The translations under genes and the position numbers were made by a program. DNA of 64,000 nt from Dimargaris cristalligena. Lineage: Eukaryota > Kickxellomycota > Dimargaritomycetes > Dimargaritales > Dimargaritaceae. Location: the NCBI GenBank assembly GCA_027576995.1, contig JANBQC010000010.1, positions 62,001 through 126,000 of the forward strand. The letters run 5' to 3'. Under the pieces are notes generated by a model. It was not told where the DNA came from and ran no database searches. It saw only the letters and a program-made list of their open reading frames with translations. Shown in pieces: positions 1,167 through 54,450 of the stretch. Each line of letters starts with the position of its first letter. Position 1 is the first letter of the stretch.

Positions 1167-4100
1167 ATGGAGATGGACGAGTCAAATCTAAAGCGGCAGC
1201 GGGTAAGTCGGGCCTGTGACGCCTGCCGCAAGAAAAAAGTCAAATGTGACGGGGTGTCGCCCATTTGTACCAATTGCCAACTGCTGGAAAACGTCTGCAC
1301 CTACAAGGATACCGCCAAAAAACGGGGCCCCCCCAAGGGCTATATTGATGCCATCGAGTCCAAACTTACCCGCATGGAAAATTTATTAGCCGAGCTTGTT
1401 GACGGGGAGGGCCAGGTTCAGCCCCAAGTCCTAACTGAGCTTCGGACCCTGAGGCTTGACAATCCAGTAAGTAGTAGTGCTCTCTCCTATACCATTTACT
1501 CCCCAGCCTAATCATCTACTGGGCCTCACCTTATTGGCCCATCACACTTCATTCGTTCCCCTCCTATTATATCTATCTATCCATCCCTTATATATTCCCC
1601 CGGGCCTGGTGCTATGCATATATAAATAACCCTTTCCCCTTCCACACACACACATTAGTGCTTCCCTTACCCGAAATGAATCATTTGAATACGAGCTAAC
1701 CTAAACCAGTAATTTCCAACCCGGGGCAAATAACCCCGGCCTGACTGCCTTGTTATTTATCTACCCTACCTCCAGATAATCAAAAACAAAAAGACCGGGC
1801 ACCCCCACACGGCCGCCGAGGGCCGGGCCCAACGGCTCGAGCCGAGGAAGCATCCAATAACCGACTCGGGATCCCCTGAGTTCGAGTCGAGGGGCACCGC
1901 TTCCCCGCACGGCCCGTACGAGCGCGAGACGGTGCTCCGCTCCAACGTGGCCATGAACCACCTGGCAGTGGACGAATTCGGCAACCAGCGGTACTGCGGG
2001 CAGTCCAGTGGCATGTGGTTGCTGCGCGAAAGCACCAAGTTCCAACGGGGCATTCTAGTGGGCAAACGGGCTACTCTGCTCAACTCGCCCCGCAAGTGCC
2101 CCTATACCGATGTCAGCCAGGTGCCCCGCGAGGTGGAGCTGGCCTTGATCCGGGGCTTTTTTGAACACATTTACCCCATATTCCCCATTGTGCTCCCCCG
2201 CCAGTTCTGGAATGCTTACCATGACCCGGCCGATCCCATTTCGCTGCTCCTGAAATACTCCATGTTCGCTTGCGTCTCCAAGTTCGTGGACTTGGACGAC
2301 ATTCTGCACGGCACCAACGACTTGCTAGCCATCCTCTACTTTGACACTCTGCGCCCCTACCTGATGCACAATCTATTCACGTCGTCCATCACCATGGTCC
2401 AATCCCTCATCCTGCTATGTATCTACCAGCACGGTTGCTTAACCATGAAGGGCTGGAAATACAACGGCATGGCCATCAATCTAGCCTATGACTTGGGCCT
2501 ACACCGGGACCCCGAGCGAATGGGGTTGGCCCGCATGAGCGAGCAGGACTGTGAGCTACGTCGGCGGATCTGGTGGAGTTGCTATACCTTGGATACCATC
2601 GGCAGTGCCTCGCTGGGCCGGCCCCCAGTTGTAAAAAGCATGGGGTTTGACACGGAATTCTGTAAATTAGACGAGGATGCTGAATTTGTGGCCGCCATCA
2701 TCGACCAGCGCATCGTGGGACCAGTAACGGACTCTACGATCATTCCTCCAGCCGACCGCCGCCGCCAGGAGTTGCCCTTTTCGATCAGTCGCCACTCCAA
2801 GTACCTGCTGACGCTAGTGCACTTGGCCAACCGCACCATGAACCAGGTGTACGGCTACCAATCGGTATTCCTCAAAGACGACCACCACCCCATTATCTTT
2901 AACATCCCCGTCGCTCAGTTGGATAAGCAGCTCCGTTCGTGGCTCATTAATTTGCCGCCCGAGCTGAAATACAGCCCCAGCGACTACCTTAAGCTACAGC
3001 CCGCCCCGCACCGGTTTATTACCATGATGCATAGCATCTACCACCATACCCTCATTCTTATCCATCGGCCGTTCCTGGCCCACCAGTGGCACATTCCGAT
3101 TCTGGCAGTTGAACCCACACCTCCATTCGATATGGCGGGCCCTTCCACGGCCGGTCGAGGCGGCGACAGTGGAAACGGCGGCGCCCTTGGTGACTTGGAT
3201 GGTCGGGGCATGCTCGATCCGAGTTCCTCCACGGGGAACGGTCTGGATGTGCATGGTCGGCAGTTTTCAACGACTCTATCCTCGGCTGAGTTTTCCTCCC
3301 TACAAATCTGTACCTCGTCGTCCGCTGCACTCACCTGCATACAGTACCTCGCCAGTCACAAGAGCCGGAATTTCGGCTCGATTTTTTCGATTTCGATGGT
3401 CATGTCGTCGGCCACCCTTCACTTGCATAACGCCCTCTCCCCCGAACCAACCTACGCGCGGGCAGCGAAATCATACCTTCGCACGTCCCTGGAAACGTTG
3501 GCCACACTGGGCCAGCGCTGGTCATCGGCCCGGAACTTGGTCGCCGTGTTGGAGGAACTCATTGACATTCGGCATATTTCCCTGACCGGTATTCCCCACT
3601 CCGTCGATCTGGACCCCGATGAAAATCTGGCCTACGCTCTTGCAGTAAATCCCATGCAGATTATGGATGATGTCTTGGCGTCGCCCCCCCACACGATGAC
3701 GACCACGGGACAGTCCACGAATGAACGTGGCTTTGCCTTGGGTGGTGGTAGTAGTAATAGTAGTAGTGGCCCATTTGTCCCGTCGTTAATTAAAGGACAT
3801 CCATCCAATGGACAAGGGCCCCAGAGCAAACATTCTTTACACCTACTCAGCCAGACGGCCACGTCCGAGGGGGGAACCCCATCATCGGGTTCGCAGTCCA
3901 ACCGAAAGAACTCGCCCGGCCCCGGCCAATCCCGGCGGTCCGCCAAGGATCGTTCCAACTCACTATCAACGGGGCCCTATCCCCCCCGGCCACGGCCCAT
4001 GCCTGCCGGACGAAACCTACTCCAGGCCCGCCCGGGCGCTACCCGTAATTTGACCCTGAACTTTCCCCCGCATTACCAGAGCCCGGAGGTGGCTGCCCGC

Positions 4101-5738
4101 CATGTCTCCTCCGCCTCGCTCGGCCACGTGGCGAGCACTTCGGGGGCAATCAAAGGGGAAATGGATGGGCGACCTTCATTGACCACCCCGATTGGTCCGG
4201 GAATGGCGGGCGGGCCCATGGTCCCGCAGACCGTTGGCTATGCCTTGGTTCGATTGGACCCGGCCACGGGTCAACGGCAAGTCGGTTCGGGCACGCAGAT
4301 GAACCCCCCGCATTACATTCCCAATGTGGGTATTACCACCCAACTGTCGCCCGGCCAACCGCCGAATATGAGATCCCTGTATCCCACCCAAATGCTGTGG
4401 ACTAATATGATGGATGATCCTAATTTCGACGTGGGGGTTCGGTCCGCCGATAACCAAGCCCATAACCGCCTGGAAGTAGTGTCCAGTATGGCCCTGGATA
4501 ATCAAAAGGGTGCCGCCGGGGGCGGGGGCGGAAATACGCTACCCTATGATATGGCTCCTAACAACCACCCGTCCATGGGTCTATCTATGGATGGTTCGCG
4601 CCTCGGTGGTGGCCCTAGTATCACTAACAGTCCGGCATTTAGTACACCTGTCTTATCCACCACAGCCAACCGGGGCTCTCCCCACCCCGGGAACTCCCAA
4701 CCCAGCGGATCGGCTGTGGGTGGTGGTGGTGGCGGCCGGTTTTCTTCCGGAGCCAGCAACTCCGGTACGCCGCCGTTGGATCCGCAACAGACGCATCCCC
4801 TTACCGTCGACTTCAAGCCGGCCTCGTTCCCCGCGGCGTACCCCACCCCCCTTCACTCATTCGACCCCTACGCCGTGTACGGTGCCGCCACTGGCAATGA
4901 TATCCACCACATCCAGTCCTTTCTGCGCCAACCCGGTCGGTTATCGACCATGGCCGGCAACATGAGCAGCCCTACCGTCACTCCTCCGACTCCCGTGAAT
5001 GGCGCCACCGCCACTCATTCACCGGGTCTTAATATCTACCAGAATTCGGCGGGCCCGGTCTCCGGTCCGTCCGCGGGAATGCTCCTTCAAGCGGGCAATG
5101 GCGGCGGGATAGCCGCTTCCGGTCAAACCGAAACGGCTGCAAGTGCTAATGGCCTCTCCGGTCTTCCCACCATGGGTGTGGCTACCGAACTAACCATTGA
5201 TTACGACGAACCGGACCCGGTTTCGGTTATCCAAGGAAACCACCCCTCCGCTCCACACTATCCTAATTCCGGACCGGGCTCACGACCGACCCACCCTCAT
5301 CATCACCACCAACACCACTCCAACCACCCTCTGTCCGGCCCGATTCGCCAGGCCCCTTTGATTATCCCCGCTCAACAAAACTATCCCCAACCGGGTGGTT
5401 CTGCCAACCCCAATAACCACCCTTCAATGACCAGTCGTAGTTTCTCCTTGGGTAATATCGGCGGGGGTAACAACGGTGGTGTAATGGCATCGAATTCTGC
5501 CATACTATCGGCCGGTGGTGATCAGGGCGGTGGCGGTGGGGGTTTAATGTTGACGGGAACGTCCCGGGGTGGACCTCCTCCTCCCCCCACCCAGCAGCAG
5601 CAGGCCCCATTTATCCCCACCAGGGGTCAGAATCAGGCCTTCTTCACCAACTTGGACAATTTCTTTTTTGACACCGAATCCATGGACCTGAATGGTTGGG
5701 AATTGGGCGGTCAGTCCCCGTCCTCATCCCAGCTGTAG
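1167..5738 (+). CDS. Zn2Cys6 fungal-specific transcription factor
   Basis: A nuclear DNA-binding regulator of 1420 aa in two exons, 1167-1466 and 1776-5738, joined in phase 0 (donor GTAAGT, acceptor AG at 1774-1775). I use the ATG at 1167, just before the zinc cluster; the longer frame upstream starts only at a TTG. The zinc cluster spans residues 17-44 with spacing C-x2-C-x6-C-x6-C-x2-C-x6-C, followed by a short basic linker and a predicted dimerisation helix (about 62-80). A fungal-specific middle domain follows, from about residue 220 to 500, with the typical RRRIWWSCYTLD and ASLGRPP signatures. From about residue 700 to the end it is low complexity, rich in Gly, Ser, Asn, Pro and His, with an acidic, Phe-rich tail (NLDNFFFDTESMDL) that may be an activation domain. 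Xylanolytic-regulator-like members share this architecture. The target genes cannot be told from sequence. The intron is 309 nt. Confidence 0.92.
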
Positions 5739-6276: not shown

Positions 6277-7740
6277 TCAGGGCCACTGCGGATCGGAGCA
6301 TTTGCCGTAATAGGAGGAGCATGATGAAAACTCGGACTGAACCGGTAGTGGGGGGTTATGAAGCACCACCAGACTCCGATCGTCATTATGATCACTACTA
6401 TTCCCCGCGGCGGTGGATCCGCTCGTCATAGTGCTGGGAACAGACGATAGGGGTGGTGGAGTGGGTTTACACTCGGGGGCTGGGTGCTCGCGGTTTCGAT
6501 GACGCAGTGATTCGCCAGGGGAAGCCGTCCGATTCGCTATCCGGGATTTACGACAATACCCGATGGCCCACAGCAGTAACCGGTCGCGTAACTTACGAAG
6601 GGATCCTTTGGGGCGTTGATACGGTTCCACACCGCCACCACCGCCAGCGGTGGCGGCGGGGTTATGATCCTGGCCCAGCCGGTATCGACGACTGCCTGGC
6701 ACACTGTGCCAAGCGAGCAGCCGGGTATCGTAAAGGGGATCTAACGAATGCGCCACGATCATTGCCCGACAGCCCTTTAAGACCGCCCGAAAAGCCGGTT
6801 CGGTCATGAAGACCAGCGCGTCGAGAATACCCTGAGCGGGGGGGAATATATAATATACCATAATAAACCCGAACCCGGTGGACTGGGTGTGGTAGGCCAC
6901 TAGATTGTGCCAGGCGGGCACCAACGTGGTGATGATTGGCACCAGGGTGTAGAACAGAATCCGAATCACTGAGTGGTGAATGGCCTTCATGGTCGCCTGC
7001 TGTTGGGAAACTATCGTCTCGTACACTACCAGGAGGACCTCCTGGGATTGCGTTGCGTGTTTAATCGAGGATTTTATCAGCGACCGACTCTGTAGTAAAT
7101 GAACAATGACGGCAATTTCGCACATGATATTGATAAAGATGGCGGCAAACGAAGGGGCCAGAAAGGTGGGCCACATCCAAGCATAAGTCTGCTCAGAAAA
7201 CAGGGGCACAAACCGATATTGCTCGTAGTAGAAGCTGAAACCGTACCGTCCCGCGGCTAATGGAACAATGGCATACACCAGCGCTAGTAGTAATGCCCCC
7301 AGGGTCAGCCACAGTCCCGCCCGACGCTGGTACGTTCGCCTCAATACAAACACGTAATAAAGATTAAGGACCATGAGGACTTGGACAAACAGGGAGAATA
7401 GTAAGAACCATAGCCAAAAGGTAAAAATAACACTGCAGCCTAACCTGCTTTTTACGGAGTCATTGACGAAGTACATGGCGCTGAGCACAATATTGGCCGT
7501 GCTTTTGATGGTCAACAGCGTTAAAGTAGATCGTCGAACGAGTTCGGGGCGTGTCAACAGACCGAGTAAATAGACACTTATGATTAGAGCGCTCCCCCCA
7601 ATAGATACTGAAGCAATGGCGGTATTGACCATCTCGGAGGCTGTGATTTCATCGAGCGTAAAATGGCCACTATCAGCGGGATGATTGTCACGGCGCTCAT
7701 GTTGGATCGATGCCGGGGAGAAACGGGTGGCGAATGACAT
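6277..7740 (-). CDS. Seven-transmembrane receptor, cAMP-receptor-like GPCR
   Basis: Single-exon protein of 487 aa starting at an ATG. Seven hydrophobic segments can be placed at about residues 38-62, 71-92, 103-132, 141-163, 187-215, 256-280 and 288-313. The third intracellular loop is about 40 residues. A hydrophilic Ser/Thr/Pro-rich cytosolic tail covers about 330-487 and could take phosphorylation. The N-terminus (about 37 aa) is hydrophilic with no signal peptide. Helix layout, Cys102 before helix 3 and an FPPAQG motif in helix 7 resemble the Dictyostelium cAMP-receptor/Git3-like class, which signals through heterotrimeric G proteins and cAMP. The ligand is unknown. Family assignment rests on topology and general resemblance, not an alignment. 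Confidence 0.75.
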   Translation of the reverse strand: MSFATRFSPASIQHERRDNHPADSGHFTLDEITASEMVNTAIASVSIGGSALIISVYLLGLLTRPELVRRSTLTLLTIKSTANIVLSAMYFVNDSVKSRLGCSVIFTFWLWFLLFSLFVQVLMVLNLYYVFVLRRTYQRRAGLWLTLGALLLALVYAIVPLAAGRYGFSFYYEQYRFVPLFSEQTYAWMWPTFLAPSFAAIFINIMCEIAVIVHLLQSRSLIKSSIKHATQSQEVLLVVYETIVSQQQATMKAIHHSVIRILFYTLVPIITTLVPAWHNLVAYHTQSTGFGFIMVYYIFPPAQGILDALVFMTEPAFRAVLKGCRAMIVAHSLDPLYDTRLLAWHSVPGSRRYRLGQDHNPAATAGGGGGVEPYQRPKGSLRKLRDRLLLWAIGYCRKSRIANRTASPGESLRHRNREHPAPECKPTPPPLSSVPSTMTSGSTAAGNSSDHNDDRSLVVLHNPPLPVQSEFSSCSSYYGKCSDPQWP

Positions 7741-8496
7741 GGACTCCCACGGATAAACATATCCGGGTCATGACTTGATAAAATGGCCCAGGCGTAAGAA
7801 CATGGTGGCTAAGCACGTTGAGTAATTTGTGGGTATTACACGAACATGGGCAGGCGTAATAACAGCCTAGAATGGTGATAGTGAATATGATAAATAATAA
7901 ACCAGGTTTGGAAACTTGGATTGGCTATAAACTATGTATTACAAATGGTATACTAAATAAGGCGTCACTTCCTTGCATTAGGGTCAGCCTCCTATGCTCT
8001 TAGTAATTCTCCGAGCAACCAGGCATGGCGATTGAATGAGGTGTCAGGTAAAGGATATTTCCCTATTCCTAAAGGCGATAATACCCTGGAACTAGAGCTA
8101 AGGTTGACAACCAGCGGATGCCAGACTAATAGAAAGGGAAACCCGGTTTCACCAAAAAGTATACGAGATTGTCTCACGCGAAACGAAGATACCTGTGCGG
8201 GTATTTTATTAACCGGTCGCCTAGGCCCATACAAAATTAGGTTCCGAATATGATTTAGTTTTGTGCTTAAAATAGCATAGAGACGACCTGAATGAGCGCT
8301 GTTATTACAATGCTAGCTGTATTCATTTTTGGATTAAAATACATTCTCGTTTATTAAGCAGCGGTGATGTTCAGTCTTGATCCTGATACAGTCACTTTAG
8401 AATAGACAATACACATTTAAAAAAATCCTTCAAATCAGCCTGACAATGTCTATGGTGCATGAGTAGGCTGAAATGGGTGGGTTAAAAATAGGTTCG
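7741..8496. other. Intergenic region, no supported gene
   Basis: Between the start of the receptor gene and the end of the INTS8-like gene, both on the minus strand. Open frames on both strands at 7992-8253 lack an ATG and have no recognisable similarity, so none is called. Confidence 0.5.
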
Positions 8497-11400
8497 CTAA
8501 TCTTTCTGCTGTACATGGGCAGTGACTGGTGGCTTGCCATGTAAAGGAGTGAGGGAGTTGTTTAGATCCGCTCGAGGTTTTGGGCGTGTCCCACCGTTGT
8601 GAAGCAGCATTGGTTTATCGCTGGGGTCCCGATTAATTAAAGCAGAAAGAGCAGTGCTCAAATAAGCCCAGAGTTTCTGGCGTAACCAGCTATCAGTTAG
8701 CCAGGGCTTTTCAATCGACCGGCTGGCAGACAGGGTGGCAATATGGGTTGTCTAAGTATGACAGTAAAGCATAGAGGAAGAAAGGGACCGAATTAGATAA
8801 GTGTTATAGTAGGGTGCCAAGACTGAGCAAGTTCGGGAGGAACTATTTAACATAAAATAAAGTATGTTCCAATATAGCCAAAGTAGGCGAACTTACCAGT
8901 TTTCGGGCCAACTCGTCGTGGCCGTTTCGGCTTGCGTAGTCTAAAATGCCCGATAGAGGGAAGAGGTGGGGACGATTGGCCAAAGTGCAGTCCAGATAGG
9001 CATGTAATACGTGTATAAAAACAGCGGGGGTTAATAAAACATTATCCGTAGTATGCATTCAATAAACGGAATTTTCCATACCGACAACAATGAGAAATGG
9101 GCTATTCATAGAAGCCATAGGTCAACAATTCCCAGGTAGTGAATTGGACTGGACCAATGTGAGACACTAGTAAGGGCAGATCACACTCCCCCCCCCTTAT
9201 TGACAAAGGCACTTACATATAACGTATTCTAGGATTCTTAGGTCCCAAATAAGTTCCCAGCGACTTTGTTCCAGTGGCCCCCCGGGAAGCGCAAAGTACC
9301 GATCGAGAAATGAAAACATGGTCGGGGCCTCGGGTACCAACGAGAGCTGACCCACGAGAACGGCCATGAAAGGGTCGCCTAACTCCATGCACGAAAGGTA
9401 GGCGGGCATAAGGTAGTAGTCCTGCCAGGCCACCATACCCAGGAGAGGGCTGGTGTGGGGAGGCGGAGGGGTTAAACCACCACCACCATTGGCAGGTTTA
9501 GGGCGCTCCCCGGCGATCAGGGAGTTGGAGGGCGGTACCTGCCAGGCCAGGTAGTTATCGAAGGCCGTGACGAAATGGCCGATGCAGGCCCGATAGTTTC
9601 GGTTGAGGTGGTGGATATGTCCTAATAAAAGTAAGATTCGACAGCGAAGAGTATTGGGTAGTGGGAAGCGGTGTGGTGGCAGCAGTTCCGTAGCGGTGGT
9701 TGTTTTCACCAAGGCCTCTCCAATCACTTCGAGCAATTCCGCAGCCGTGTCTAAAATCTGGGGCATGGTGGTGTCTGGAGTGTGTAGAGCTGCTACCCAC
9801 TGGACCCAATAGTCGTCCTTCAAAGCGGGCTGGGCCTCCTGGGGATTCGCCGTAATTAAGGGTAGACAGCCCAATTGCTCTATGGCCAGGCCTAGACACG
9901 GCCATTTGGTTAGCCCGGTGTACACGCCCATTAGCAAAAACAGGGTGAATGGGTCCTGTAGGTACCGGGACAGACTCTGGAATAGTAGGGCCCGGGTTTG
10001 GGGGCCCAGTTGCCTGACTATCTGAACAGTTTGGCAGGCTGATTTGCGAATCTCAATAAGGACCGGCGGAGGGATATTCTTCACGAGGGCCGACATTCCC
10101 TGAAAGTCCAAGCATACTGACCCGTCCGGGTTGAATAATTGTTCCTCTAAACCTGGGGCAGCTTGGCGGAATTTCTCCATAATCAGTCCGATACCCGGGA
10201 GCACACCGAGCGCTCGCATTTGGGATTCTATCGGGACATAGTAGTAGTGAGAATTCGCAGTGAATGTAGAACAACACATTGGTTAAATAATGTATGCCTT
10301 CAACATGACTGTGGGCCTTGTAGACTCTACAAATAGGGAAATGCCAGGTACCGGTAACGATAATAACACAACAACGGGGTACGAATCGTTTTCAACTTAC
10401 CATCCTGAATGAAGCTAGTTCGGTTGCCTGAAATCCATTGGATCACCTGGATAAAGCGGGAGAATTCGCGAAAGTGGAGGCAGTAGAGGGCCAGTCGGAG
10501 TACAATGGGGAACGGGGTGGTAGCATGGGATTGCAGCACCTGGGGTAGGTTTATGGTCCAAATGTCCGCTTCTTTGCCGGGAGGTACTGCCCGGATCGCG
10601 GTGCGGTTGCCCGCCAGGTCCGCCAGGGCCCACAACAGCCGGTTGAGTTTCAGGAAAAAATCTACCGACTCGGCATTAACGGTGGGCCGCCGGGGGTCGC
10701 TGGCCGGGTCCAACCCCAAGTTGGGGGAGGAGTTCAACATAGTAGATATGCGGTAATAAATACTGCCCGCCAACGGGTAACATTCCTTAACCATAAGATC
10801 CGTAGCCAGATTGAAAAGAGTGGTGCTGGCCGTCTCCAGGGGCTTGTAAGACGAGGGTGCGACAATTTCCGGGGTCAATGGAATAGCGGTGGATTGTTGG
10901 AACCGCCGGGCCCGGATTTTCTGGAATTGTTCCCGCAATACAGCATCCCCGGGCACCTCGATGATGGAAGCAGCTACCCCTTCGTTCAGAAAGGACTCAC
11001 AGCGATCAATCAGGGAGGCGAGCGCCCAGGCAAATCGGGGGTGGTTGATGACCGTCTCTCTAACAGGGGGATTCCAGGCACTGTAATTGGTAACAATGGA
11101 CATGTAGGTCTTGAGTAATAATTGCTTGTCGACGGGAAACGAATCCCGGAAGGACTCAATAGTGCAGGGCTGTAGCTTAAGGTCCAGACCTAGCGATATT
11201 TAAGAAGATTAGAAAAGGTATAGAGGCCGATGGGTTAATTATAGGCATAGCCAGTGGAGTGGCTAATGTCAGGCACTATGCCACATACAATCTAATAGAC
11301 GACGCATACATTAGTCGAACGTGTCTAGTGAATTTTCAAAAAACCCACCTAGGCAATATTAATAATAAATAAATAAACAGTCAGCGAGGGGACTTACCAA

Positions 11401-13199
11401 ACGACTCATAAAACCCCAATAGGCTATTGGTTAAATCAACCACACATCCGATGACCACAAGTTTAGCGGAAACAAGCCGCTGCACCAGATGGTACCGGTA
11501 GGCCTGCGACAAGTACTCGTGCGCATGATCATTGAGCAGCACGTAAACCATGGCCGGCATGGCCCCGATTTGGAGCTGTAGCAATGAATCCCCGAGGGGG
11601 GCCTCCTTCACCATAGCAATGGTTTGTTCCATAAACGAAATGTAGCCGGAGGGAGGGCAGGTGGCTAGGGAGGGATGCGGTAATGATTTACTTCGGTTGG
11701 TCCCCGTGCCCATTACCGCGGCCGCCGCCTGACAAGCGGCCAGGCAATCCTCAATATGTTGACGAATTGACTGGGGATCGAAGCCCGGCTCCCCCTGTTC
11801 GGGTAGGATAGCTACGCTGGCCTCGAAAAAGGGAATGGCATGGTCGAACCGAAGGGCCGCCATTAAGTACTCGGCGCACTCCAATCGGTATTGAAAGCGC
11901 AAACGTGCGAGCCCGGGCTGCCGGGCTCCATTGGTGGAGGTAGTGACGAGCGCGTCCAGGTGAACTAACGCATCGGTTACAAAGGCGAAATGGCAATCTG
12001 TCGGGGTAGTCCAGTCGACCAGGGGCAAACGATCGTTGCCGTAGCAATGGAGCACCCAGCGATGGTAGAGCACCAGTACATGGGCGAAAGGCCTTTTGGA
12101 TAGCCGGGAGTTGCTTTACATTTATATATATATATAGATATATATCAATATTGTGCGAGGTACGCGGAGTAGTAGCGGTACAGGCATAGGTGGGTATAGA
12201 GAGTTAGTTGGTTGTTTTTTTCGGTCTCTCCGAAAAGGAATGTACTGGTATTTCAGCGTATGTCTTGAAGGATTCCAGTCTTCCTGATTTGGCCACTTAC
12301 ATAAACTGACCATCCCGGGTGGCTAAAATAAAGGCAAACAGGGTCACCGTAACCTGGGGCGAGATTTCTTGGAGTAGGAAGTCGAGGGGCAGTTTGCTGC
12401 GCTCGATGAGTTCAGCGGCCAGTCCGAGGTAGCGTTTCTGTTTCGCCGTCAACTCCATGGTATCCCGGGCGCCGGTATCGCCTAATCCCCGGGCCGAATT
12501 CTTCGTCTCGGCCGAGAGATTGCGAGTCATGGGTGAGCTAGCCACGCCATTGGCGTCGCCCCCGTCTTCGGAGGGCTGTCCCCCCGCTGTTGATGGGTGG
12601 GGAGGACTACTACCACTTCCCTTGCGGGTAGCTAACAGAACCGCATTGGAACGGAAGGCAAAGGGTGATTTATCTGCCAGGGGCAAGCCACTGGCCGGGT
12701 CCCGGTACAGCCATACTTTGGAGACATGGGTAGGAATGCGGAGCATGTGGGCGGCGGGTGACAACAGTGGGGACGCCATGGGGGTAGTTGGCACGGTGGG
12801 GCCTGGATTGAGCGGATGGCGGGCATGGAAGTCCGGGAATTGGGACACCGCCAGTAAATCGGTCACCATTCGCCGGGCCTTGGACTGGAGCAGGAGACCC
12901 TTGGGGTCAGCAAGAGGCACCCATGGGTCAAGTTCCGGAAACTGGAGTGGAAGGGAATGTGGGTAAGGTATCCAAAGAGAAAGGGGTTAGTGGGGACCCC
13001 GGGGAAGTTTAGACATGGAAAAGGACAATAAACGTGGCGGAGGAGCATGTGCCGACCGCTGGCCAGGGGCAAGCCTTCAGGCTGGAAAACAATGGCCTGA
13101 ATCTCCAATACGACTGGGATCCTTTAATGGTAGTCGAGCAGTACTTACGTCTTCGTCAAGACGGTGGGGTTGAAGAAAATAGTCAATGTATTCGGACAT
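8497..13199 (-). CDS. INTS8: Integrator complex subunit 8-like protein
   Basis: Seven exons read from high to low coordinate: 13149-13199, 12301-12941, 11398-12092, 10401-11189, 9217-10227, 8897-8940 and 8497-8751. Together they give 1161 aa. All six donors are GTAAGT and frame is kept throughout. The C-terminal third matches animal INTS8: a helical TPR-like stretch (about ILLLLGHIHHLNRNYRACIG) followed by a WDLRILEYVI block that parallels the animal WDVTILEYL block. The middle has an AHVLVLYHRW motif like the animal AVLLYNRW, then more helical repeats. Exon 1 encodes only 17 residues, including EYIDYFL, which sits where the animal protein has its PP2A-binding WFEFLL motif. In animals INTS8 joins the Integrator phosphatase module, which attenuates RNA polymerase II. 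Human INTS8 is 995 aa. A 44-nt microexon encodes residues next to the conserved C-terminal block. Function in this fungus is inferred. Confidence 0.75.
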
Positions 13200-14266: not shown

Positions 14267-16751
14267 TTAGTTATCGGGGATGACTTCCATGGGCGAAGTC
14301 TTTTGGACCGATTGCTGTAGCACCAAGGCCAAGAAACACAGGACATCCACCTCGTAGTCAATGGATTTCTGAATGGTAGTTGGCCCTCCGTGGCCACTAT
14401 TGCGGCCCACCTTCAGTAAAATCGGCTGGGCCCGCGTGCTTCCCGGGGAAGATTTGGCTACGGCGTGTTGAAGGGCGGCCGCGAATTTAAATGAGTGGAG
14501 GGGTGACACTCGATTATCGTGGTCGGCGGTCAACAGCAGAATGGCGGGGTACGGGCGACTGGTCTGGATATTATGCAGGGGGGAGTAACGCCGGATGTAG
14601 GCAAAATCGGCGGCATCGTTGGGATCGCCGTATTCCGAGGTCCAGGCGTGGCCAATGGTAAAGCGGTGGAATCGCAACATATCGTGCACCCCTACCTCAG
14701 GGATCGCGGCTCCGAATAGGTCGGGTCGCTGGTTAATGCAGGCCCCCACTAGGAGCCCGCCGTTGGATGCCCCACGGATAGCAAGCAGGCGGGGACAGGT
14801 GTAGCCCTGGGCGACTAACCACTGGGCCGCGGCCTGGAAATCGTCGAAACAGGTCTGTTTGCTGTGGCCTTTGCCGGCGTCGTGCCACGTCTGGCCGTAC
14901 TCTCCACCACCACGAATACCAGCGACGACAATCACACCGTCAAAGGCCAGCATAAACGCCAGGCGCGATATGTTGTAACCGGGGGATACAGATGAGCCGA
15001 AACCCCCGTAGGCATAGAGTATGGCGGGGTGACTGCCGTCCAGCACGAGATCCCGGCGACAGGTAACGAACAGCGGAATTAGGGTTCCGTCGTAGCTGGG
15101 GTAGAAGACCTGGCGGGTCTCATATTTCGAAGGGTCGAAATTGCATTTAGAGAGACCGGTGAAATAGACCTCTGGTGTCAGTGCAGGGGGTTCGGCTGGA
15201 GCAGCGGGGGGCAGGGGCAGTGGGGCTGGCTTCGGGGACACTTGGCTTTGGAAATTAAGACTCAGGGCAGGGTTTCGCGAGGTGAGGCTCGCCTCCTCCC
15301 AGGCACCTTCGGGGAATGTGTATTGTAACAGCTGAACCGGCCGTAAAGACGAGGCGGCCGCAAAGTAAAAGGTGGGGAATCGGCGCTTACAGAGTATACC
15401 GGAAATGCTACTGGACGGGACCCGAATGGTACCTAAACACTTGCCCGTCTCCCGGTCGTGTAAAGACAGTTGACCCACGGCATGGCGTTGGTATAATACC
15501 ACCAAATACTGGTGGTACGCAATAGCGGCCGCTTTGAGGATATCGGTCGGATGCTGAGGTATGACGTTTTGAAATCCATCCGCGGGCTGGTCCACGTCAT
15601 ACTTGACAATCCGCCAACGAGGGGCGTCTAGCTGGGTGATGAAGTATAAGCACGGGCCATGGGCGGAGATGAATTTGTAAGCGCACTTAAAATCAGATAT
15701 GATAGGTCGAAAAACGGGTGATTGAATCGTTCCATTCTCGGTACTCCGGTCCCATACCATGACCCGGTGGCTGTTGCTGGCCCCTTGGCAGCTGTACAAT
15801 AGCAGGAACCGCTGGTCATCATCGTCCGAGAGCACCACACTATGTAAAAGGTTCGGCTGATCAGGTTCCGCGTAGATCAGCTGGTCCTGAGTTTGCGGGG
15901 TGCCAACACGGTGGTAGTAAATGGTACCATGCGTGGAAGACTCCGTCGTCTGGCCATCAAGGTTGGCCTCGGCGGGGTCCATGTAACGGGTATAAAAAAA
16001 ACCTTGATTATCACGGGTCCAATAGGGAGAGTTGAATTTCAGCCCGGTTATCTCAACTGGCCCCAACTCACCGGGTCGGTCGGCCCGCATGAGTCGAACA
16101 CTGCGCCAATCGCTACCGTTTTCGGTTAAAACGACCGCCGCCACCGTGCCATCGGGGCTGAAGGGGTAGCCCGCGAGTGAGACATTGCCAGATTCGGAAA
16201 AGGTGTTGGGGTCGATAAAAACCACGGGCTCGGTATCGAACGAGGATTGTTGATAGACAATGGACTTGGGCTGAAGTCCCGAGTTGCCGGAAAAATAATA
16301 ATAGTCACCGTGACGGCTGGGGGCAGATCGATACTCGTAATCTTCTAGGGACGTGAGTCTGTTAGGGGGACAAGAGGGTGGATTATAATAATGCTGTTTA
16401 ACGATTAGAAATCAATACGAAAGCGTAAATTTCGCTGTGTTCTTTGGGCTGGAAGTGTGGTCACTGTATCGGTTGATTTGCCAGGATGACCTTGACGTCA
16501 CTAAGTATAACTTACAGATCCTTAAAGCGTGGACGCTCTTGCTGCTGGTCCAGATACTCCTGGGCGAACCTCGCCTGGGCATCGATGAATTCGGCGGTTT
16601 CGGAGGAACGGGGATCCTCCAGCCAGCGGTATGGATCCGCAACCATTTCCCCGTGATGAGTCTCGACACAGTCCTCGTCACGGCGTGCCGCCGGGGAACA
16701 TACCGGTACGGGGCACTGATTCTCTACGTCGACTAAACTTGCGACAGTCAT
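14267..16751 (-). CDS. PREP: Prolyl oligopeptidase (S9A serine peptidase)
   Basis: Two exons, 16516-16751 and 14267-16358, give 775 aa (donor GTAAGT, joined in phase 2). The enzyme cleaves short peptides after proline and is normally cytosolic; no signal peptide is seen. The N-terminus carries the family motif DPYRWLED (about residues 40-47). A seven-bladed propeller region follows, then a C-terminal alpha/beta hydrolase domain. The catalytic serine is Ser610 in GASNGG, the acidic residue lies in ADHDNRVSPLHS, and the histidine lies in SGHGG. A Pro/Ala-rich insert of about 30 residues separates propeller and hydrolase and lengthens the protein beyond the usual ~710 aa. The catalytic set looks intact. 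Confidence 0.95.
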
Positions 16752-19022: not shown

Positions 19023-21253
19023 ATGTCCAAATCCCTGAAGAAGCAACTGGCCAATTTTTTGGACCCCACCCCTGAAGGTATACATGTCCGCCATTAATAC
19101 CCATCAGAGCCTATCCCGATATCGGCTTATGTATACGGGCCCCACTTCTCTTCCTACCCCGTACGGCAATTATAGAAAACCAATTTCAATGAGCTAACAC
19201 CTCCCTGTTATTATCAATTTTGTCATTCCAGATTTTGATCCCGAGGATTTCGAACGCCTGGATAAGCCTGATTCGGATGCCACTGATATCGGCTCCGCCT
19301 CGGACGAGGATACCGGTGTTGACGCCAAACGCGACCACTACGTGAAAGTCGGGTAAGTCCCCCCTCCATGAAATGTTAATATTCAACTTCTACTGAACCA
19401 TACCCGGAACCCGTCGGGTCCCCTGCCAGCAACCCTATTCATCCTCCTAATTTGATATCTCTACCCAGTCTAATTCCATATTATACCCCTGATATTATCT
19501 ATTCCCGCCCCTACCTGTTCGCGATGGTCATAGCAAAAGTAAACTTCGGAAAGACGAGAACGTTACCCTTTCCGACCCTAAATATGTTGGCCAACGGGTT
19601 AGCCGGAAGTCGCTCTATCAACTTAACCAGTCCGATAGTGAATTGGAGAGTGGCAGTGAAGTTGAAAGTGAACTTGATATCGAGGTTGGCGGAAACGACA
19701 CTAGCGACAGCAATGACAATGATGACACCCAAAGTGATGCCGGGTCCGAAGGTTTCCAAGATAGTTCCGACGAAGTAATGGCCATGGGGGCCTCCCCCGA
19801 TGCGGAAGTGAACTGGTCTGACTCAGAGGAAGGCGCATCAGCCGACCAAGCCACAGACGACAGTGATCTGGAAGAGAGCATGGGAAGCGAGGAAGAATCC
19901 AGCGACGAGGGCGAATCCGGTGACGAATTGGAGTCGTCGAGCGCAATGGGTGACGCCGAAGAGGCCCAGCCAACCGCTACCCGCACCAAACTCCAGAAGC
20001 AACTGGCCGAGATTGAGGAACAGGAAAAGGCCATGCTGCAGCAACTCGCCCAAGGTTCCCTTGGGGAAATGACCAAAGGCCGGGCCGTTATGCGGCAAAT
20101 CAAACGCTGGAACGGGTTCCTGGATTCCCGGATCCGACTCCAAAAGGCCCTGGTCATGGCCAACTGCCTTCCCACCCCGGACCGGCTGGCCGAAGCGGAG
20201 ACTGAGTCCCTGCACCAAAATCCCCTATGGAACGAACTTAAACAGAAGACGGGCTCGGTGCTACGGGACTTGGTCGACTTGCGGATCCGGCTGTGGGAGC
20301 GGAACCAGGACGCCGGGGTGTCCACCGATCAACTGAGCCACCTCAAGCGACCCCGGTCCTCCAGCGACTCGGCATCCTCGGACAATGAGAACGAGAATGA
20401 TACTGACTCCCCCCCGACTAAACTGGCCCGCTCCGCCGATGGCCCCATGGACTGGGCGGCCCTGGACCAACTTCACCAGCGCTTTGTACCCTACCGGAAC
20501 GACGTCCTGGATAAGTGGAGTGCCAAGGTCCAAGCCGCCTCCGGTATTGCCCTGAACAAGAAACTGCGGGCCTTCAACCAGAGTGCCGTCCACCAGGCCC
20601 AGGAAACCCTCCAGGATCGGGATCGTCTCCTGCGCCGTACCCAACTGAAGCGGACCGACTATCCCCCCCTTCTGCCCGATGCTTCCCCGTCAATCACCAC
20701 CACCACTACCACTACTAGTACCACATCCGTGGGCGACGACGGCAAGGACTACCACCCCGAAATCTTCGACGACCATGATTTCTACCAAACCCTACTCCGG
20801 GAACTGATTGAGAGTCGGATGGCCACCACCGACGATCCGGTGGCCCTCGGTAAACGGTGGGTGGCCCTCAAACAACAGCAAGCCACCCAAGAACGGGAAC
20901 GGCGGTCCCGTACCGTGGATAACAAGGCCAGTAAGGGCCGTCGCCTGCGTTACCACGTTCACGAAAAATTGCAAAACTTCATGGCCCCCATGGGTACTTC
21001 GGGTTGGCACGCGGATATGGTCGATGAGCTTTATGCTACTTTATTAGGTCAGAAGATCGCGGCGATCCAGGAGGAACAGCCCGCCCAGGCGGATTCCGAT
21101 GTCGATTTGGCCCAGGCTGAAATGGACCGGTTAGAGCAGGGCCAGGCTAGCAACAGCAACCAGCGCAGCGACGACGACGACAACGAGGAGGAGGACAGTC
21201 CGGAAACGGAGGAGGCGATTACAAGTACCGATGGCCTGAAGATTTTCGGGTAA
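19023..21253 (+). CDS. BFR2: Bfr2/AATF (Che-1/TRAUB) ribosome-biogenesis protein
   Basis: Three exons, 19023-19077, 19232-19352 and 19534-21253, give 631 aa (donors GTATAC and GTAAGT). The family acts in the nucleolus in small-subunit processome assembly and early 18S pre-rRNA cleavage. The N-terminus has a DFDPEDFERLDKPDSD block and the conserved KSKLRKDE...GQRVSRKSLY segment. A long acidic stretch covers about residues 95-190. The AATF domain follows, with KLQKQLAEIEEQEKAMLQQL and RQIKRWNGFLDSRIRLQKAL. The C-terminal TRAUB domain has FDDHDFYQTLLRELIESR and KGRRLRYHVHEKLQNFMAP, then an acidic tail. The first exon is short (18 codons), and its ATG follows a CACC context. Confidence 0.96.
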
Positions 21254-32364: not shown

Positions 32365-35358
32365 TAGCCTGCTCGATGACCTGCTATTGGACCTCCGAGG
32401 CATTGCGGAACGGTGACGGTATTTTGACACTTTCAATGGCGACCATCGGATTTGTAAATATTAAATATTATTATTAGTAGTATTTGGTCAGACCGGAATA
32501 GTTAAGTCATTCACATCGCGGGACGTTTCCATTGAGCTGGGGGTCAGGAGTCTTCCAGGGTTGTCTCCAGAATTATAGCCAAAAGTCTAACAGGACGAAA
32601 ATTTTCAGCAAAAAGTTCATACCGATGGCGGAATGCCCCTCCCCCCAAGGTTTGTGATTGCGTACTTCTTGTTGACTTGGCAGAGGGGATTAGCGGCTTT
32701 CTAAGTCTAGAAGGAACACTGACCATTTTAAAAATAAATAATCTATTAGGAACAGGTCAAGATGGGCCTCTTATTTTTGGGTAATCGACTCTGATAAGCA
32801 CCGCCTAATAGGGGTATTTTAAATTAAGAAGAGGGAGGAGAGGACTTACTTATCCGTCGCCGGGCCAATTGTGGCTGGAGCGCGCCACCAACGAACCGGA
32901 TTGGTTAGCCCAGGGGGAAAACGACAATTTAGTATACCATGACAAGGAAAACCTGCCTGGTATATATTCCGACAAAGGGGGGAGGGGCGCCACCCAGTGA
33001 AAACCAGGAGGCTGGAATAGAAAGGCAGGCAGGGGTTGATGGACCAATTAGAATGGAGGGTTAGACAATATACCCCGCTGGCCTATGGAATGCATTTTAA
33101 TATACGGGAGATTAAGGACCCTAGTATAGAAAGGTGATGTAGTTTATTAATGAAGAAATGGATCCTGATCAGGTTTAATTATTTGAAAAACTACTGCGCT
33201 AGATGTACGGCGAAACTAATAAACCAAGGTTCGATTTACATGGTACGAAAAAAAACAACACCCCTAGCTACCCATGTGCGCTGGGGTAATATATATATAT
33301 ATGTACATTTGTCTACATCTCAACAACTTTTGCATTCCTCCGCTTCCCATTGGATCTCCCCACAATTCCGCTCATTCTTTAAATCATTAACTCTACCCCC
33401 TCTCTCTCTATATATACATATTCCACTGATATTATCCCTCAGCAGACCCGCACATAGTCCTGCAGCCTCTTACCAGCTATACTGGGTCGTATCCAGGCTC
33501 TTTACCCATGCCCTTCTTAATCGGCGTTGGGGACCCGCTTACGCGGCCTGTCTGTATTAAGAATCTTATTCCCTTGCATTCGTCATCCACACCCACACCC
33601 ACACAAATGGTGGTCGAGCTCCATTCAGTATGGAGTAAAGGATATTCCCTCAACCCGATTGGGAATGGGCCCGGTCTTGGCATGCCATTGAGAAAGGGGT
33701 ATCTATAGTCTTTTGGAATTCTGACAAATCATGTCGACCTTTCTATGCAGCGGACTAGTTCAAAGTCCGCCCGAAGGATTGGTAGGGTCGGTTGCGTTGA
33801 TAATTTCTGGTTAGTGGTGTGGTGGAATGCACGTATTGATTGGCTAAAGCCCAGCCAGCGGGGCTCTGATTTGATTGGGACTGGGCTATCTAATGAACAC
33901 TACCGGCATTTAAAGAGACGCTGCTGGTCATGTTGACGGCATTCGGGGTTGGTCTTCCGTCTCGAACGCGTCTTCCGAAGAACTGGTAGAGGGTATCCAT
34001 TGAGTTAGGGAAGATTCGGTGTTCTTCGGCCTAATGAATTAAACCCGGCCTGATTTCTACGACATGGCAATCGTCGCAAGTCGCTCGTTGTTAAATGCCG
34101 GGGGGATTGCCTAGCGCCTCATTATTTCAGTCGCCCCACACTCAGTAGGTCTCCTTCAATCTCCTGCCTCAAATGGCTTCATTTTCATTTTTCATTTGAC
34201 CTTCCCTTCCCCTCACCTCGCAAGGCAAACATTCTATTGAATTAATCACCCATTGCATTGCTGATGCATTCACTTGTGGCTCAGCCGGCCAACTCCTAGG
34301 ATATTAATACTCCGCCGCCTCCATTATACTACACTAATCCGCATTAGTTGGTTTGTACTTTGATGGAACAGATTATTCTGCCCGTATTTGTTGGCCCTTT
34401 ACTTTCCTCATTCATCCATACCCGCTCGCCTAGTGCCTATATCCCGTGGATTTTTCCTCCCCCTGGCCGTCACTCGCTCCTTAACTATCCCCTTGTGGCT
34501 CTACTGTAGATTCTCTTTTTTCATTCCGGCTGTCCTCATTGAGGCATTCTCTCGCAGGCCTGCTCGTTCGTCCGTGCAACCGGTTGGACCTATACCAAGC
34601 CGTTATTCTGAGGTGTCTCGCACTCTGCAACTTACCGGCGCGTGCAAGTCGGTTGAGGCGACGGCTCTACGGTTGCACCACTTGCCTTGTACCCCCCCAC
34701 CCAACCCTCCATTCGCAGCGGACCAAGTCTACCGTTGGTGCACTTACTTACCGCACGACTAGGTCGCTTGCCTCGTTGGCATATATATATATATAGTACT
34801 TCGTCTAGTATAAAAGCCCCTTGGATATGTTACCTCCCGTTTTCTTACTTTCTATAGTTGCTGCTCACTCGACTCCTCTCCACCCCTCTCAACCAACTTT
34901 TCCCCTCCTAAACCCTCATCGGTCTCGGCTACACCGCTATCCTCAGGGGCCTCCAGAGTCCAGCCGCGTATAAGTGATAAGAGTGACCCTGGTTTCGGGG
35001 TCTTATCCATCTACTATTACTCACCGCTCCTCCTGGTCTTTACCTCGCCCATTCCCTTCTGTTTTGCGCATATACGCCTGCTACTAGTTTCAAAATACCT
35101 TCCTATAGGTTACATGGGTCAGCCTTGACCTCCTAGTTATTCTTTACCACCCCCGTCTCTCCTCTATTGCATTGCTCTCCCCGTCTCTGGAATACCTATT
35201 TCGAGTCCAAAAGTCGGCCCTATACCTACCACGCCACTCCCAGCCGCCCTCTATCACCAACAAAAAAAATCTCCGAAGCTGACCCATATCTATCGGTCGC
35301 GTGTACACGCCCCCCGCATTTTCCCTTGACTTTATTATATTACTTCTTCCCGCCTTCC
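32365..35358. other. Long region without a confident gene, upstream of the flippase
   Basis: About 3 kb. The right ~1 kb (34.2-35.36 kb) is strongly pyrimidine-rich on the + strand and should be promoter and 5' leader of the P4-ATPase. The left part has minus-strand coding-like segments at 32544-32740 and 32850-33047, with acceptor- and donor-like sequences between them. The second segment hits a stop codon directly before its GTAAGT, so I could not build a gene. Confidence 0.5.
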
Positions 35359-38300
35359 ATGCGCTCCAGAGCGTCTCTGCCAAGTGAAGGCACCGCTGCC
35401 ACCCTTGGCGGTACTTCCCAACAGACCCTCTACGAAATGGCCCCTCCCATGGACGCTGACCAAACTCCAGCCGCTCGGAATCCCGTCGGCACCCCGCCCT
35501 CGGCTGCCCTCGCTCTCCCCAGCCCTAGTATGTCCCGTGTGATTCACAGCGAGGGCCGACACTCCCTGAATCTGTCTGGTGAACTTCGTCGCCGGCTCCT
35601 CGACGAGTCCCCGCTGCACCCCTTGTCCAAGGGCCCCTCCGCTGTAGCCATGGCTCTGAGTCGGTCCCTACCTTCCCCCATGCCCCTGGGAGCCGCCCCG
35701 TCGGAAGTCGCGGTGGCCTTGAATTCCAACCTAAATCGCCTACTGCGGCATAAACCTAGCTTCTCCCAGTCGTTCGTCACCAGCACCAACGGCTCCATCA
35801 GTTTGGCTGATATGTCATACGACCTACCCGACACCTACCAGGTCGACTTTAACTGCCCCGATTCGGATTTAGCCAAGCGATACAAGTATCCCACGAATTA
35901 CCAACGCACCACCAAATACACCCTACTGACTTTTCTGCCGCTCAACCTGTTTGCACAGTTCCGCCGCTTTTATAATATTTATTTCCTACTCGCCGCCATT
36001 TTCGTCTTGATCGTACCATCCCTTGATCCCGTATCCGAAGTACTTCCTCTATGTATCGTTCTCACCATCACTGCCGTCAAAGACGGAACCGAAGACTACA
36101 AGCGGTATCATCAGGATCGACGTGTCAACAGCCTGGAATACATCACTGTTAGTCACGGCGAGCGCATGCCCATTCTCTCCAAGGATATTCGACCGGGTTA
36201 TATCATTTACCTCCAAAAAGGCCAGACCGTACCCGCTGATTTGATTCTGCTGAGCACTAGTATAGAGGACGGCACCGCTTTCGTTGAAACCATGGATCTG
36301 GATGGTGAAACCAGTCTCAAGCGGAAGGCAGCCATGCGGTTTACCCAACCCTTCGCCACCGATGCCAAAGTTTCCACCTTGCGGGGTCGCATTCAGTGCG
36401 AATTCCCCAACGAAAAGCTCGACCAAATTGACGGCCGGGTCCATTTTCATCGGGCGTATGCTTCCGAAAAACCCTCCGTGCTTACTCCCGAAGGGGGGTC
36501 ATCCGACCCGCCGGACACCAGCGTCCAGCCCTTCACAGCCGACAACGTGCTGCTGCGCGGTACGCATCTGCGGAACACTGACTTCATCTACGGCGTGGTA
36601 GCGTACGCCGGGGTCGACTCCAAAATCATGCGCAACCTCAAGAATACCGGCCTCAAATTCTCCACGATGGAGGGTCGCCTCAACCGCCTGATTATCGCCA
36701 TCTTCGTATGGAACGCTATTATGCTGACCGTCAGCGTGGTCCTGTCGTTGGCCGACTCGGTAAGTACCTTCGGGATTGGTTGGAGGGGGATTGTTCATTC
36801 ATTGTTGAGCTTCGCTGGTATTTTTTTTAACGGGCGGTCCATGGTGTCCATCCCTTCCCATTCTTCCGCTCCCTCATCTTTTGCTTTTTGGCACTGGTTT
36901 TCTAAGTGGCGATCCTTGGCTGCATTAGGAAAGGATACATTGAGCCGTGTTTCGGCTCTTGGCGAAAATCTATTTAATGGCCCTCAGATATCATTTGAGA
37001 GAATGGGGAACATCGTTTGCTGGGTCAACCTTTCCCTGCCATATTCCTTCATTCCGACTACAGTGCGATTGGGCATTCTGTGTTCCTCACTGACTTCCCA
37101 CCCACATACTAAATTATTTATCTTACCATCTGTTCCCTGCTATGCATGTACACCTTTCTCCTAACCTGCCCATGCCCTAACCTATTCTTAGTCCCGCTCC
37201 AAGGCCTGGTACCTCGGCGACCAGTCGGTGGTCCCCACGGAGGTATTATCCCAGTTCATGGTGTTCTTCGTGCTGTATACCTTCCTGATTCCCATCTCCA
37301 TTTTTGTTTCGATTGAACTGGTGCATATCCTCCAGGCCCTGTTCATGCGGTGGGACCGCCGTATGGTGTCGTTCCGCCCCTCGACTAAAGGTACTGCCGT
37401 CGAAAAAAAGCACATGCATGTCCATAATACCAACCTGCACGAGGATTTAGGGGCCGTCGAATACATTTTCTCCGATAAGACGGGGACGTTGACTAAAAAT
37501 ATCATGACGCTGTCGAAATGGGGTATCGGCTGTCGGGTTTTCGATGAGGCCGAGGATCCGGGTTGTCTCGGCGAATACATCCGCACCCTCGACCCCAGTT
37601 CCCCACACTACCAGCAGTACACACGCTTTTGGCAGACCATGGCGCTGTGTCACTCAGCCATTCCCGTCCAGGAGGAAACCGGAGAGAAGGCCACGCTGGC
37701 CAGCCTAGTCTACGAGGCCCAATCCCCCGACGAATCCGCTTTACTGAGCGCCATTCGCAACAATGGGTTTATTTTCCACCAACGGAACAAGCGGTCCATG
37801 GAAGTATATCGCCAGGAGCTCGAGGGGGATGTCCCCGTAACCGATGCGAAGCATCCCCCCTATACGTGGCGGGACTCACCCGTTCGCCTGGACCGGTTCG
37901 AACTACTCTTTACTTTCCCCTTCTCCTCCGACCGCAAGCGTATGTCCGTTGTGGTACGCACCCCTGAGGGCATCCTCTTGCTCTGCAAAGGGGCCGATAA
38001 TATGATGATTCCCCGGCTTTGCTCGGAGACCACCGACCCCGCCCAGCTTGCCCATACCGAAACGTCCATCCACCAGTTTTCATTGGCCGGTCTCCGTACC
38101 TTAGTCGTTGCGGCACGCGCCCTCACCGTCAGCGAATTTGCCGAGCTCCAAAACGTGATGGAACAGGTCCAGTGCGCTCTTTCCCACCGTGAACAGCGCT
38201 TAGCGGAGGTTGCCGAATGGATCGAAACGGACCTCGAGCTGCTGGGCTGTACCGCCATTGAAGATCGTTTGCAGGACCAGGTCCCCGAAACCATTGAGTA

Positions 38301-39684
38301 TCTGCTGCGCTGCGGTATTAAGATTTGGCTCCTTACCGGGGATAAACAGGAAACGGCCGTGAAGATTGGCATGAGCTCCCACCTGATTACTTCCCAGATG
38401 AACCTGATGGTACTCAACGCGGCCAATGAATTGGAGTGCGCCGAAAAACTGGACGAGTTCATCACGATTGCCGAGGGCCGGGAAGATGGCGAAGAGAACG
38501 CCCTGGTGGTTAACGGGGCTACTCTGGAGTATGTTCTAGAGGATGTACCCCTCGCTAAGAAATTCCTCCGGTTGGGAGTGACTTGTCATTCGGTGATTTG
38601 CTGCCGAGTCACCCCGCTGCAAAAGGCCCGCGTGGTCCAGCTGGTCAAGAAACGTCTACAGAAGGTGACGCTGAGTATCGGCGACGGGGCCAACGACGTG
38701 TCCATGATCCAAGTCGCCCATGTGGGGGTGGGAATCGAAGGTATGGAGGGGGCCCAGGCCGTCCGGGCCAGCGACTACTCCTTTGTCGAATTCAAGAGCC
38801 TCCGCCCTTTGATTGCGATCCACGGCCGGTACTCGTATATCCGGATGGCCAATATTGTATTTTATTCGTTCTACAAGAACATTGTGCTAATCACGATCCA
38901 GTTTTGGTTCGGCTTTAACAACGCGTGGTCGGGCCAGACGCTCTACTTGGACTATTTCCTGACGCTGTTCAACACGGTGTTTACCTGTCTCCCACCGGTC
39001 GTGGCCGCGTGCTTTGATAAGGACGTTGACGAGCGGCTGGTCTTGCTGTATCCCGAACTCTTCCGGCAGATCCGGAATAACGTATACTGGAACTGGTGGG
39101 TGGTTGGTCACTGGGGGGCCAGTGCGTTGTGGCACTCAGGAGTCATTTACGGTTGTCTTATTTTTCTGCAACAATCCTCGGTGACGTATGCGTACGGCTC
39201 GGGCATGAGTTATCTCGTGCAGGAATACTTCGTGGGTACGGTCCTCTTTTCGGTGGTGACCGTCAAAGCCTGCCTACTGATGCGGCACTGGGTCTGGCCC
39301 TCCGTCTTCGGTATTGGCATCACCGTGGTGGTCTACATGCTGATCCAGTTCGGTTTCGAACTGTTCAATTTCGTGGACAAGGGCACTTTCGGTGATGTCC
39401 ACCGCATGCCGGGTCTGTGGCTGGTTAGTATGCTGGCCGTCGTGATGTGTCTGTTACCCGATGTTGTGGTTAAATATTGGTGCCATCAGTACCACCCCGA
39501 GGACGCGATTATTGTCCGCGAACGGGCACATCTCCTTCGAGCCCAGGCGGCCCGGAATCGCGTAGACGGCGAGGGTGGTCATTCCCCTCGTGAAGGTGGT
39601 AATGGTGGTGATCACTCGGATGATGGTGATAGTGTCTCCCAATCCCTCACTTTAATTACCCGGAATTCCGAAAGTTCCTCCTAA
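35359..39684 (+). CDS. P4-type ATPase (phospholipid flippase)
   Basis: Two exons, 35359-36759 and 37192-39684, give 1297 aa (donor GTAAGT, phase 0). The start is the first in-frame ATG; the frame further left opens only at a TTG. P4-ATPases move phospholipids from the outer or lumenal leaflet to the cytosolic leaflet of Golgi, endosomal and plasma membranes. After a disordered N-terminus (~150 aa) come the first helices with NYQRTTKYTLLTFLPLNLFAQF, then the actuator loop with DGET (from Asp315), the phosphorylation motif DKTGT (Asp562) and the hinge motif GDGANDVSMIQ. At least six C-terminal helices and a Gly/His/Ser-rich tail follow. It resembles the Drs2/ATP8 type generally, but I cannot assign the subclass. 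The 432-nt intron is the longest in the window; the reading frame stays open for most of it. Confidence 0.95.
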
Positions 39685-53359: not shown

Positions 53360-54450
53360 TTCGGGCTCGGGGTCGTTTTGGGAAGAAAGATACGGATGGT
53401 TAATGGACAAATAAGGAGAGGGGAAGTGGTAAGACTGAACTGGGAGAAGATAGAGGAGGAGAGGTATATTTCAAATATATATATTTATATCTATAAGCAG
53501 AGTAGGCAACTGGACGGAATGCAAGATGGGGCAGCAGTTTGAGTTGAGTTGGATGGGAGATAAGGGATGGAGAAGCTATCTATCACTCGGGTACAAATAC
53601 GATATCATATAAAGCTGCCGAGGCTGAGAACAAGCTAGCCGAACACAAGAGAACGCTCATCTAGTTCACGGTAAGGAGAATGAAGCGAAAGTTACTTTTT
53701 GTATACTCCCTTCCCCGCGCTAAGTCCACATAGAATCCCGGCCCAGTTGTAGTACTTCTTTCGGCCGCTCCCTTGCGATATTTCCCCTTTGGTTTAATTC
53801 CCTGTGACCGATATGTCCCATTTTCGGCCCACTTCATAATTCCAATCGGCTCTTGACGTGTCGCAAAACACCATTCTCTAACGTCGCACCAAGATTATAA
53901 CGGGCCGTGAATACAAAAGGGACTCTACTGTACCAGTATGGGATAGGATGAGTAACGTGGAGGCGGATAGGACGCTCCTCTCCGCAAATTTAGGAGCGAA
54001 TGGACGAGTGCCAGAGTGGTGCCTTGTGATTGGTCCAATATGTCTTTTGATCGGACCTGGCATACCCGCCCCCCCCAGCTTTTAAAGCGTATCCACTGTC
54101 ATGTCGGCCCATTATAGTGGCCATCGATTAAGGCGAATGGGGGATAAACTACACCCGACGGAGAGCGCTCCACTTCAGTATTTATTGGGATAATCAAGGG
54201 ATCAGAAATGGTCAAGGGGGTTCTCTGCATGAGCACATACCAAAAAATTGAAAAGGGACAAGCACGTCGGCTTTACCAATACTAAGATATTCACCAGTAT
54301 GGGGGAGTATGAATGAAGCGAGTTTAGATATAGTTCCCAAAGACAATGCCGGATAAGATGAAGGGGAAGGAGAGAAGTAGAGAAGTCGAAGCTGTCCGTC
54401 CATCTACCCCTCTCTCTCCTTAAAAACCACAGCGAATAATGCTCCCCCGT
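53360..54450. other. Intergenic region, promoter side of SCJ1
   Basis: About 1.1 kb between two minus-strand genes. A CCAAT-containing stretch and GA-rich sequence lie within 200 bases of the SCJ1 start. No gene seen. Confidence 0.5.

Follow-up and report, generated by a model that had tools for sequence, protein, structure and literature searches.

Does an early-branching fungus carry a gene for INTS8, and if so, in what kind of Integrator assembly would the protein serve? According to an excerpt of a 2022 review (PMC9006982), Integrator is restricted to metazoans. Dimargaris cristalligena (Kickxellomycotina) nevertheless has a gene on the reverse strand, at positions 8497-13199 of the 64,000-nucleotide stretch of DNA analyzed here (the window), whose product had been read from the sequence alone as a probable INTS8. 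We therefore examined the gene model, its resemblance to animal INTS8, and the presence of other Integrator subunits in the same genome.

Gene model and genomic surroundings

The sequence-only reading proposed a seven-exon gene for a protein of 1161 aa, and this was borne out: the exons translate letter for letter to the 1161-aa NCBI/UniRef record BJ085DRAFT_34710, an NCBI "hypothetical protein" of D. cristalligena. Exon 1 (13149..13199) provides the start codon and the N-terminal MSEYIDYFLQPHRLDED. Exon 2 (12301..12941) contains a Pro/Ser/Thr/Gly-rich stretch (residues 57-181, window positions 12450-12824) that is of low complexity by eye. Exons 3 (11398..12092 in the NCBI model) and 4 (10401..11189) are followed by exon 5 (9217..10227), with predicted helices that are tentatively TPR-like and the bulk of the C-terminal block. 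The short exon 6 (8897..8940) precedes exon 7 (8497..8751), which ends in the stop codon and extends beyond the point where most of the aligned animal INTS8 proteins end. All exons lie on the reverse strand. Two candidate acceptors for exon 3, 21 bases apart, were found at 12092-12113; the downstream acceptor agrees with the NCBI protein. An independent splice model using the upstream acceptor, with exon 3 starting at 12113, gave 1168 aa (seven residues different), and its six introns were GT-AG.

Pfam assigned neighboring frames in the window to a Fungal_trans factor (1734-5738, forward), a prolyl oligopeptidase (14267-16411, reverse), an AATF/Che1 protein (19493-21253, forward), a phospholipid-translocating ATPase in two frames (35137-39684, forward) and a DnaJ protein (52175-53470, reverse). 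The species record and neighbors such as the Fungal_trans factor fit the fungal host that had been supposed. A 496-aa open frame at 6277-7767 on the reverse strand has several strongly hydrophobic stretches and by eye resembles a receptor with seven helices; it matched no Pfam family at E ≤0.001.

Direct sequence and profile comparisons

An INTS8 profile search had been suggested as a check on the assignment. It returned TPR_INTS8 (PF25756) as the sole Pfam family at E ≤10, but at 11.9 bits (E 0.094), under the curated gathering cut-off of 27 bits. The match pairs the C-terminal part of the profile with the C-terminal part of the candidate. None of the four separate exon frames matched a Pfam family at E ≤1, and a phmmer search of PDB with the 1161-aa protein gave no match. 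Neither the Pfam INTS8 family nor a nucleotide-level pattern of the C-terminal motif matched anywhere when run against the genome assembly, this gene included in the case of the family.

Identity to the aligned animal INTS8 proteins was 16-20%. When human INTS8 was compared with the candidate by BLASTP, the C-terminal block ranked first (10 of 26 residues identical, 27.7 bits, E 0.004 for a single comparison), and the LYxRW block came third and in order, but by itself did not reach significance (18.5 bits, E 3.1). By hhalign against 11 animal INTS8 proteins the candidate scored 35.7, compared to a maximum of 28.4 in 60 shuffles and 18.2 for the reversed sequence, and was aligned at the right end; the HH-suite probability was only 8.55%. 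An animal INTS8 profile run with hmmsearch placed the candidate first at 4.9 bits, with the best unrelated frame 2.1 bits below (2.8 bits), and the Smith-Waterman score against human INTS8 was equalled in 4 of 200 shuffles. In a very large protein database the candidate matched only itself, whether the query was the whole length (7995 candidates scored) or 99 C-terminal residues (30 candidates). As this search requires shared five-residue words, a self-only match fits fast evolution. No fungal relative was found.

Ordered conserved blocks

As the direct searches were weak, we scored the protein with blocks chosen a priori. The 12 best-conserved, nearly gap-free blocks of 24 columns were taken from animal INTS8 alone, and the best ordered placement was scored. 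The 1161-aa protein reached 62.6, compared to maxima of 38.1 in 1500 full shuffles and 39.6 in 1500 local shuffles. Five rotations of the sequence scored 33.6-57.7, values that stay high because rotation leaves several blocks in order. Open frames ≥300 aa taken from the window and from the fetched loci, 28 in all, reached at most 27.7, 300 chimeras of these at most 33.1, and seven frames from the same genome (INTS2, INTS4, INTS7, parts of INTS3 and INTS6, CPSF73 and part of CPSF100) at most 24.7. The candidate exceeded every shuffle whether 6, 8, 10, 12, 16 or 20 blocks were used; with 20 blocks its score was 86.4, and the best of 500 shuffles reached 43.5.

Clear collinear matches were limited to four of the 12 blocks, starting at residues 188, 234, 414 and 1043. 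Human INTS8 scored 746.6 with the same 12 blocks, and the candidate is therefore a very distant relative. With blocks from vertebrates and lamprey only, the candidate scored 53.9 (maximum of 44.8 in 1000 shuffles), whereas held-out mussel and insect INTS8 scored 234-347; it is thus far more diverged than these.

Animal INTS8 (human, PDB 7cun chain H) and the candidate share the order LxLDxLL, LYxRW, [IL][EN]D[NH]..YR..L and IWDxxILEY. The candidate alone has a Pro/Ser/Gly-rich stretch of ~125 residues and a C-terminal extension. The conserved block YLGLAAELIERSKLPLDFLLQEIS (12360..12431; animal LKLLALKVAAHLKWDLDILEKSLS) was found by the a-priori scan, and PFAHVLVLYHRWVLHCYGN (12035..12091; human TAMAVLLYNRWAIRTIV) by both BLASTP and the block scans. 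A further block recovered by the a-priori scan, YVLLNDHAHEYLSQAYRYHLVQRL (11474..11545; KIFIEDNLTFSLPVQFRQSVLREL in row P0002 of alignment A1), had escaped the sequence-only reading. The C-terminal block, PLEQSRWELIWDLRILEYVI (9218..9277; animal DAMDSYYDYIWDVTILEYLT), was detected by BLASTP, hhalign and the block scans. All four are on the reverse strand. The motifs WDLRILEYVI and AHVLVLYHRW, said earlier to follow the animal order, are both present and do so.

The best-scoring a-priori block was the C-terminal one, IWDxxILEY, which lies close to the protein's end. When N-terminal, middle and C-terminal blocks were picked post hoc, their scores were reached by 3094, 470 and 0 of 20000 shuffles, respectively; as these three were chosen after the match had been seen, weight was put on the a-priori blocks. 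The best match to the WFEF-type motif in the whole protein was YIDYFL at residue 4, which the same 3094 of 20000 shuffles equalled somewhere. YIDYFL stands opposite animal WFEFLL in alignment A3, with the W and F of WFEF replaced, and is unpaired in alignment A2. The a-priori block adjoining WFEF had no match at the candidate's N-terminus in the 12-block scan. In INTS8, the N-terminal WFEF-type motif is a PP2A contact.

Structure models

AlphaFold2 models of the candidate were of low confidence (pLDDT 38 and 47). They suggest that the protein is helical and, tentatively, that exon 5 includes a TPR-like stretch; LGN and sNASP are among the generic TPR proteins that the exon 5 model resembles. 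For the TPR-like helices of the sequence-only reading, it is these low-confidence models that give helical character and generic TPR matches. Comparison with human INTS8 did not help: no INTS8 chain was among the best 50 matches listed by either structure search with these models, which do not discriminate. The protein may tentatively be called helical and TPR-like.

Other Integrator subunits in the genome

The assembly searched comprised 27.1 Mb in 779 contigs. For the backbone and the scaffold of the nuclease, INTS2 (PF14750, 315.9 bits), INTS4 (266.8 bits to human INTS4; INTS4_C domain, PF25458, 73.9 bits) and INTS7 (PF24436, 216.1 bits) were each found and each had a PDB match to the same subunit; INTS3 was identified by PF10189 (153.7 bits) and PF24566 (30.7 bits). 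INTS6 was present: five pieces matched human INTS6 in collinear order across its residues 3-642, weakly so for the outermost. Of four INTS6 frames scanned, one matched PF25462 (122.8 bits) and three had no Pfam match; INTS6 was the only PDB match of another INTS6 frame (86.7 bits). INTS2, INTS3, INTS4, INTS6 and INTS7 are clearly present in this genome.

One domain of INTS1, the C-terminal family of INTS5 and the INTS13 family had no match in the genome, nor did they match in control genomes, and a human INTS14 query found no match in the genome. Such misses of divergent subunits mean little, because the genome search with the Pfam INTS8 family also missed this INTS8 gene; for that reason only the absence of INTS9 and INTS11 carries weight. 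The human INTS11 query recovered only CPSF73 and CPSF100, and the human INTS9 query (557 residues) only CPSF73. The beta-CASP family likewise matched only CPSF73 (locus L009) and CPSF100 (locus L010). The CPSF73 frame scored 466.7 bits to CPSF73 versus 222.9 to INTS11. Thus, a proposed search for INTS5, INTS6, INTS9 and INTS11 succeeded for INTS6, but not for the INTS5 C-terminal family, INTS9 or INTS11. INTS9 and INTS11 have apparently been lost or replaced in this fungus.

Taken with the sole Pfam signal and the ordered a-priori blocks, the five other subunits support the INTS8 assignment. By its sequence, the gene at 8497-13199 is very probably a fast-evolving, highly diverged INTS8 orthologue.

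Alternative explanations

Another helical-repeat scaffold of TPR or HEAT type might look like INTS8 through repeat composition and chance motifs only. The single-profile scores lie close to noise, and the generic TPR matches of the exon 5 model, with the INTS8 chains missing from the best 50 listed per search, would suit such a protein. However, the INTS2, INTS4 and INTS7 frames of the same genome, about equal in length to the candidate, reached only 8.5-24.7 in the 12-block chain. The reversed candidate scored just 15.7, and Pfam offered no family other than TPR_INTS8. We consider this explanation very unlikely. It is harder still to credit that INTS6 and INTS3 serve only the SOSS DNA-repair complex, with INTS8 a relic lacking an Integrator. 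In an excerpt of one study, human INTS6 joins SOSS1 (INTS3, INIP, hSSB1) and favors the recruitment of PP2A to breaks (PMC11602137), and the fungus shares INTS3 and INTS6 with that complex; it additionally has INTS8 and has kept INTS2, INTS4 and INTS7, the last three being superfluous to such a role.

More weight, short of probability, belongs to a complete Integrator with INTS8 as one member, the INTS9 and INTS11 genes lying in assembly gaps or having been missed by the six-frame search. INTS4 is kept, INTS4_C domain included, and in animals it brings INTS9/INTS11 to INTS7, as stated in an excerpt of the 2022 review (PMC9006982). The assembly is split into 779 contigs, and the genome search tool scores its best candidates only. 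On the other side, both genes are absent together, and the INTS11 query was sensitive enough to pick up even a 32-residue piece of CPSF73, as well as CPSF100. A co-assembly of the species was 99.34% complete by CEGMA according to an extract of its description (PMC6784888), a figure for what may be a different assembly from the one searched. We regard a complete Integrator as unlikely.

Discussion

In excerpts of two publications, animal INTS2, INTS5, INTS6 and INTS8 are described as binding and positioning PP2A (PMC11062913; PMC9006982). The best reading of the fungal gene set is an Integrator-type assembly that would act through PP2A, whose presence we assume. As INTS2, INTS6, INTS7 and INTS8 are kept, the most likely job of the assembly would be docking PP2A on the polymerase. 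Fungal INTS8 may form the shoulder, as in animals, and, together with INTS6 and INTS2, would anchor both the scaffold and the catalytic subunit of PP2A to the Integrator backbone. The docked phosphatase would then dephosphorylate the Pol II C-terminal domain, and early transcription would be attenuated. Since the searches recovered neither INTS9 nor INTS11, the assembly is probably mainly phosphatase-based, or cutting may proceed via CPSF73/CPSF100 on INTS4. INTS4, kept without its usual partners, may hold CPSF73/CPSF100 in their place; alternatively, the assembly may have no cutting function. It is evenly balanced whether this is the full picture: an Integrator that has lost its own endonuclease pair, INTS9/INTS11, but retains INTS2, INTS4 and INTS7 along with INTS3 (linked to SOSS) and the two PP2A-docking subunits INTS6 and INTS8, and that is either a phosphatase-only Pol II attenuator or a hybrid with CPSF73/CPSF100 on INTS4.

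Compared to the Integrator-PP2A complex (INTAC), the fungus has genes for INTS2, INTS3, INTS4, INTS6, INTS7 and INTS8 in common; INTS9 and INTS11 were not found, and INTS1, INTS5, INTS13 and INTS14 went undetected in insensitive searches. In the plant DSP1 complex, Integrator-like subunits are said to partner CPSF73-I rather than INTS11, which may parallel the proposed placement of CPSF73/CPSF100 on INTS4 in the fungus.

Some zygomycete records bear automatic Integrator-subunit names, and single subunits in early fungi may therefore not surprise a curator. The newer part is the set of subunits found here together with the missing nuclease pair. Among the matches listed from the open-licence PMC literature, judged by titles and the starts of abstracts, there was no paper on a fungal Integrator. 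Six Integrator subunits in an early-branching fungus would place the origin of the complex before the animal-fungal split, unless the genes were transferred. An Integrator without INTS9 and INTS11, if true, would be a natural separation-of-function case, in which the contributions of phosphatase and cut to Pol II attenuation could be tested.
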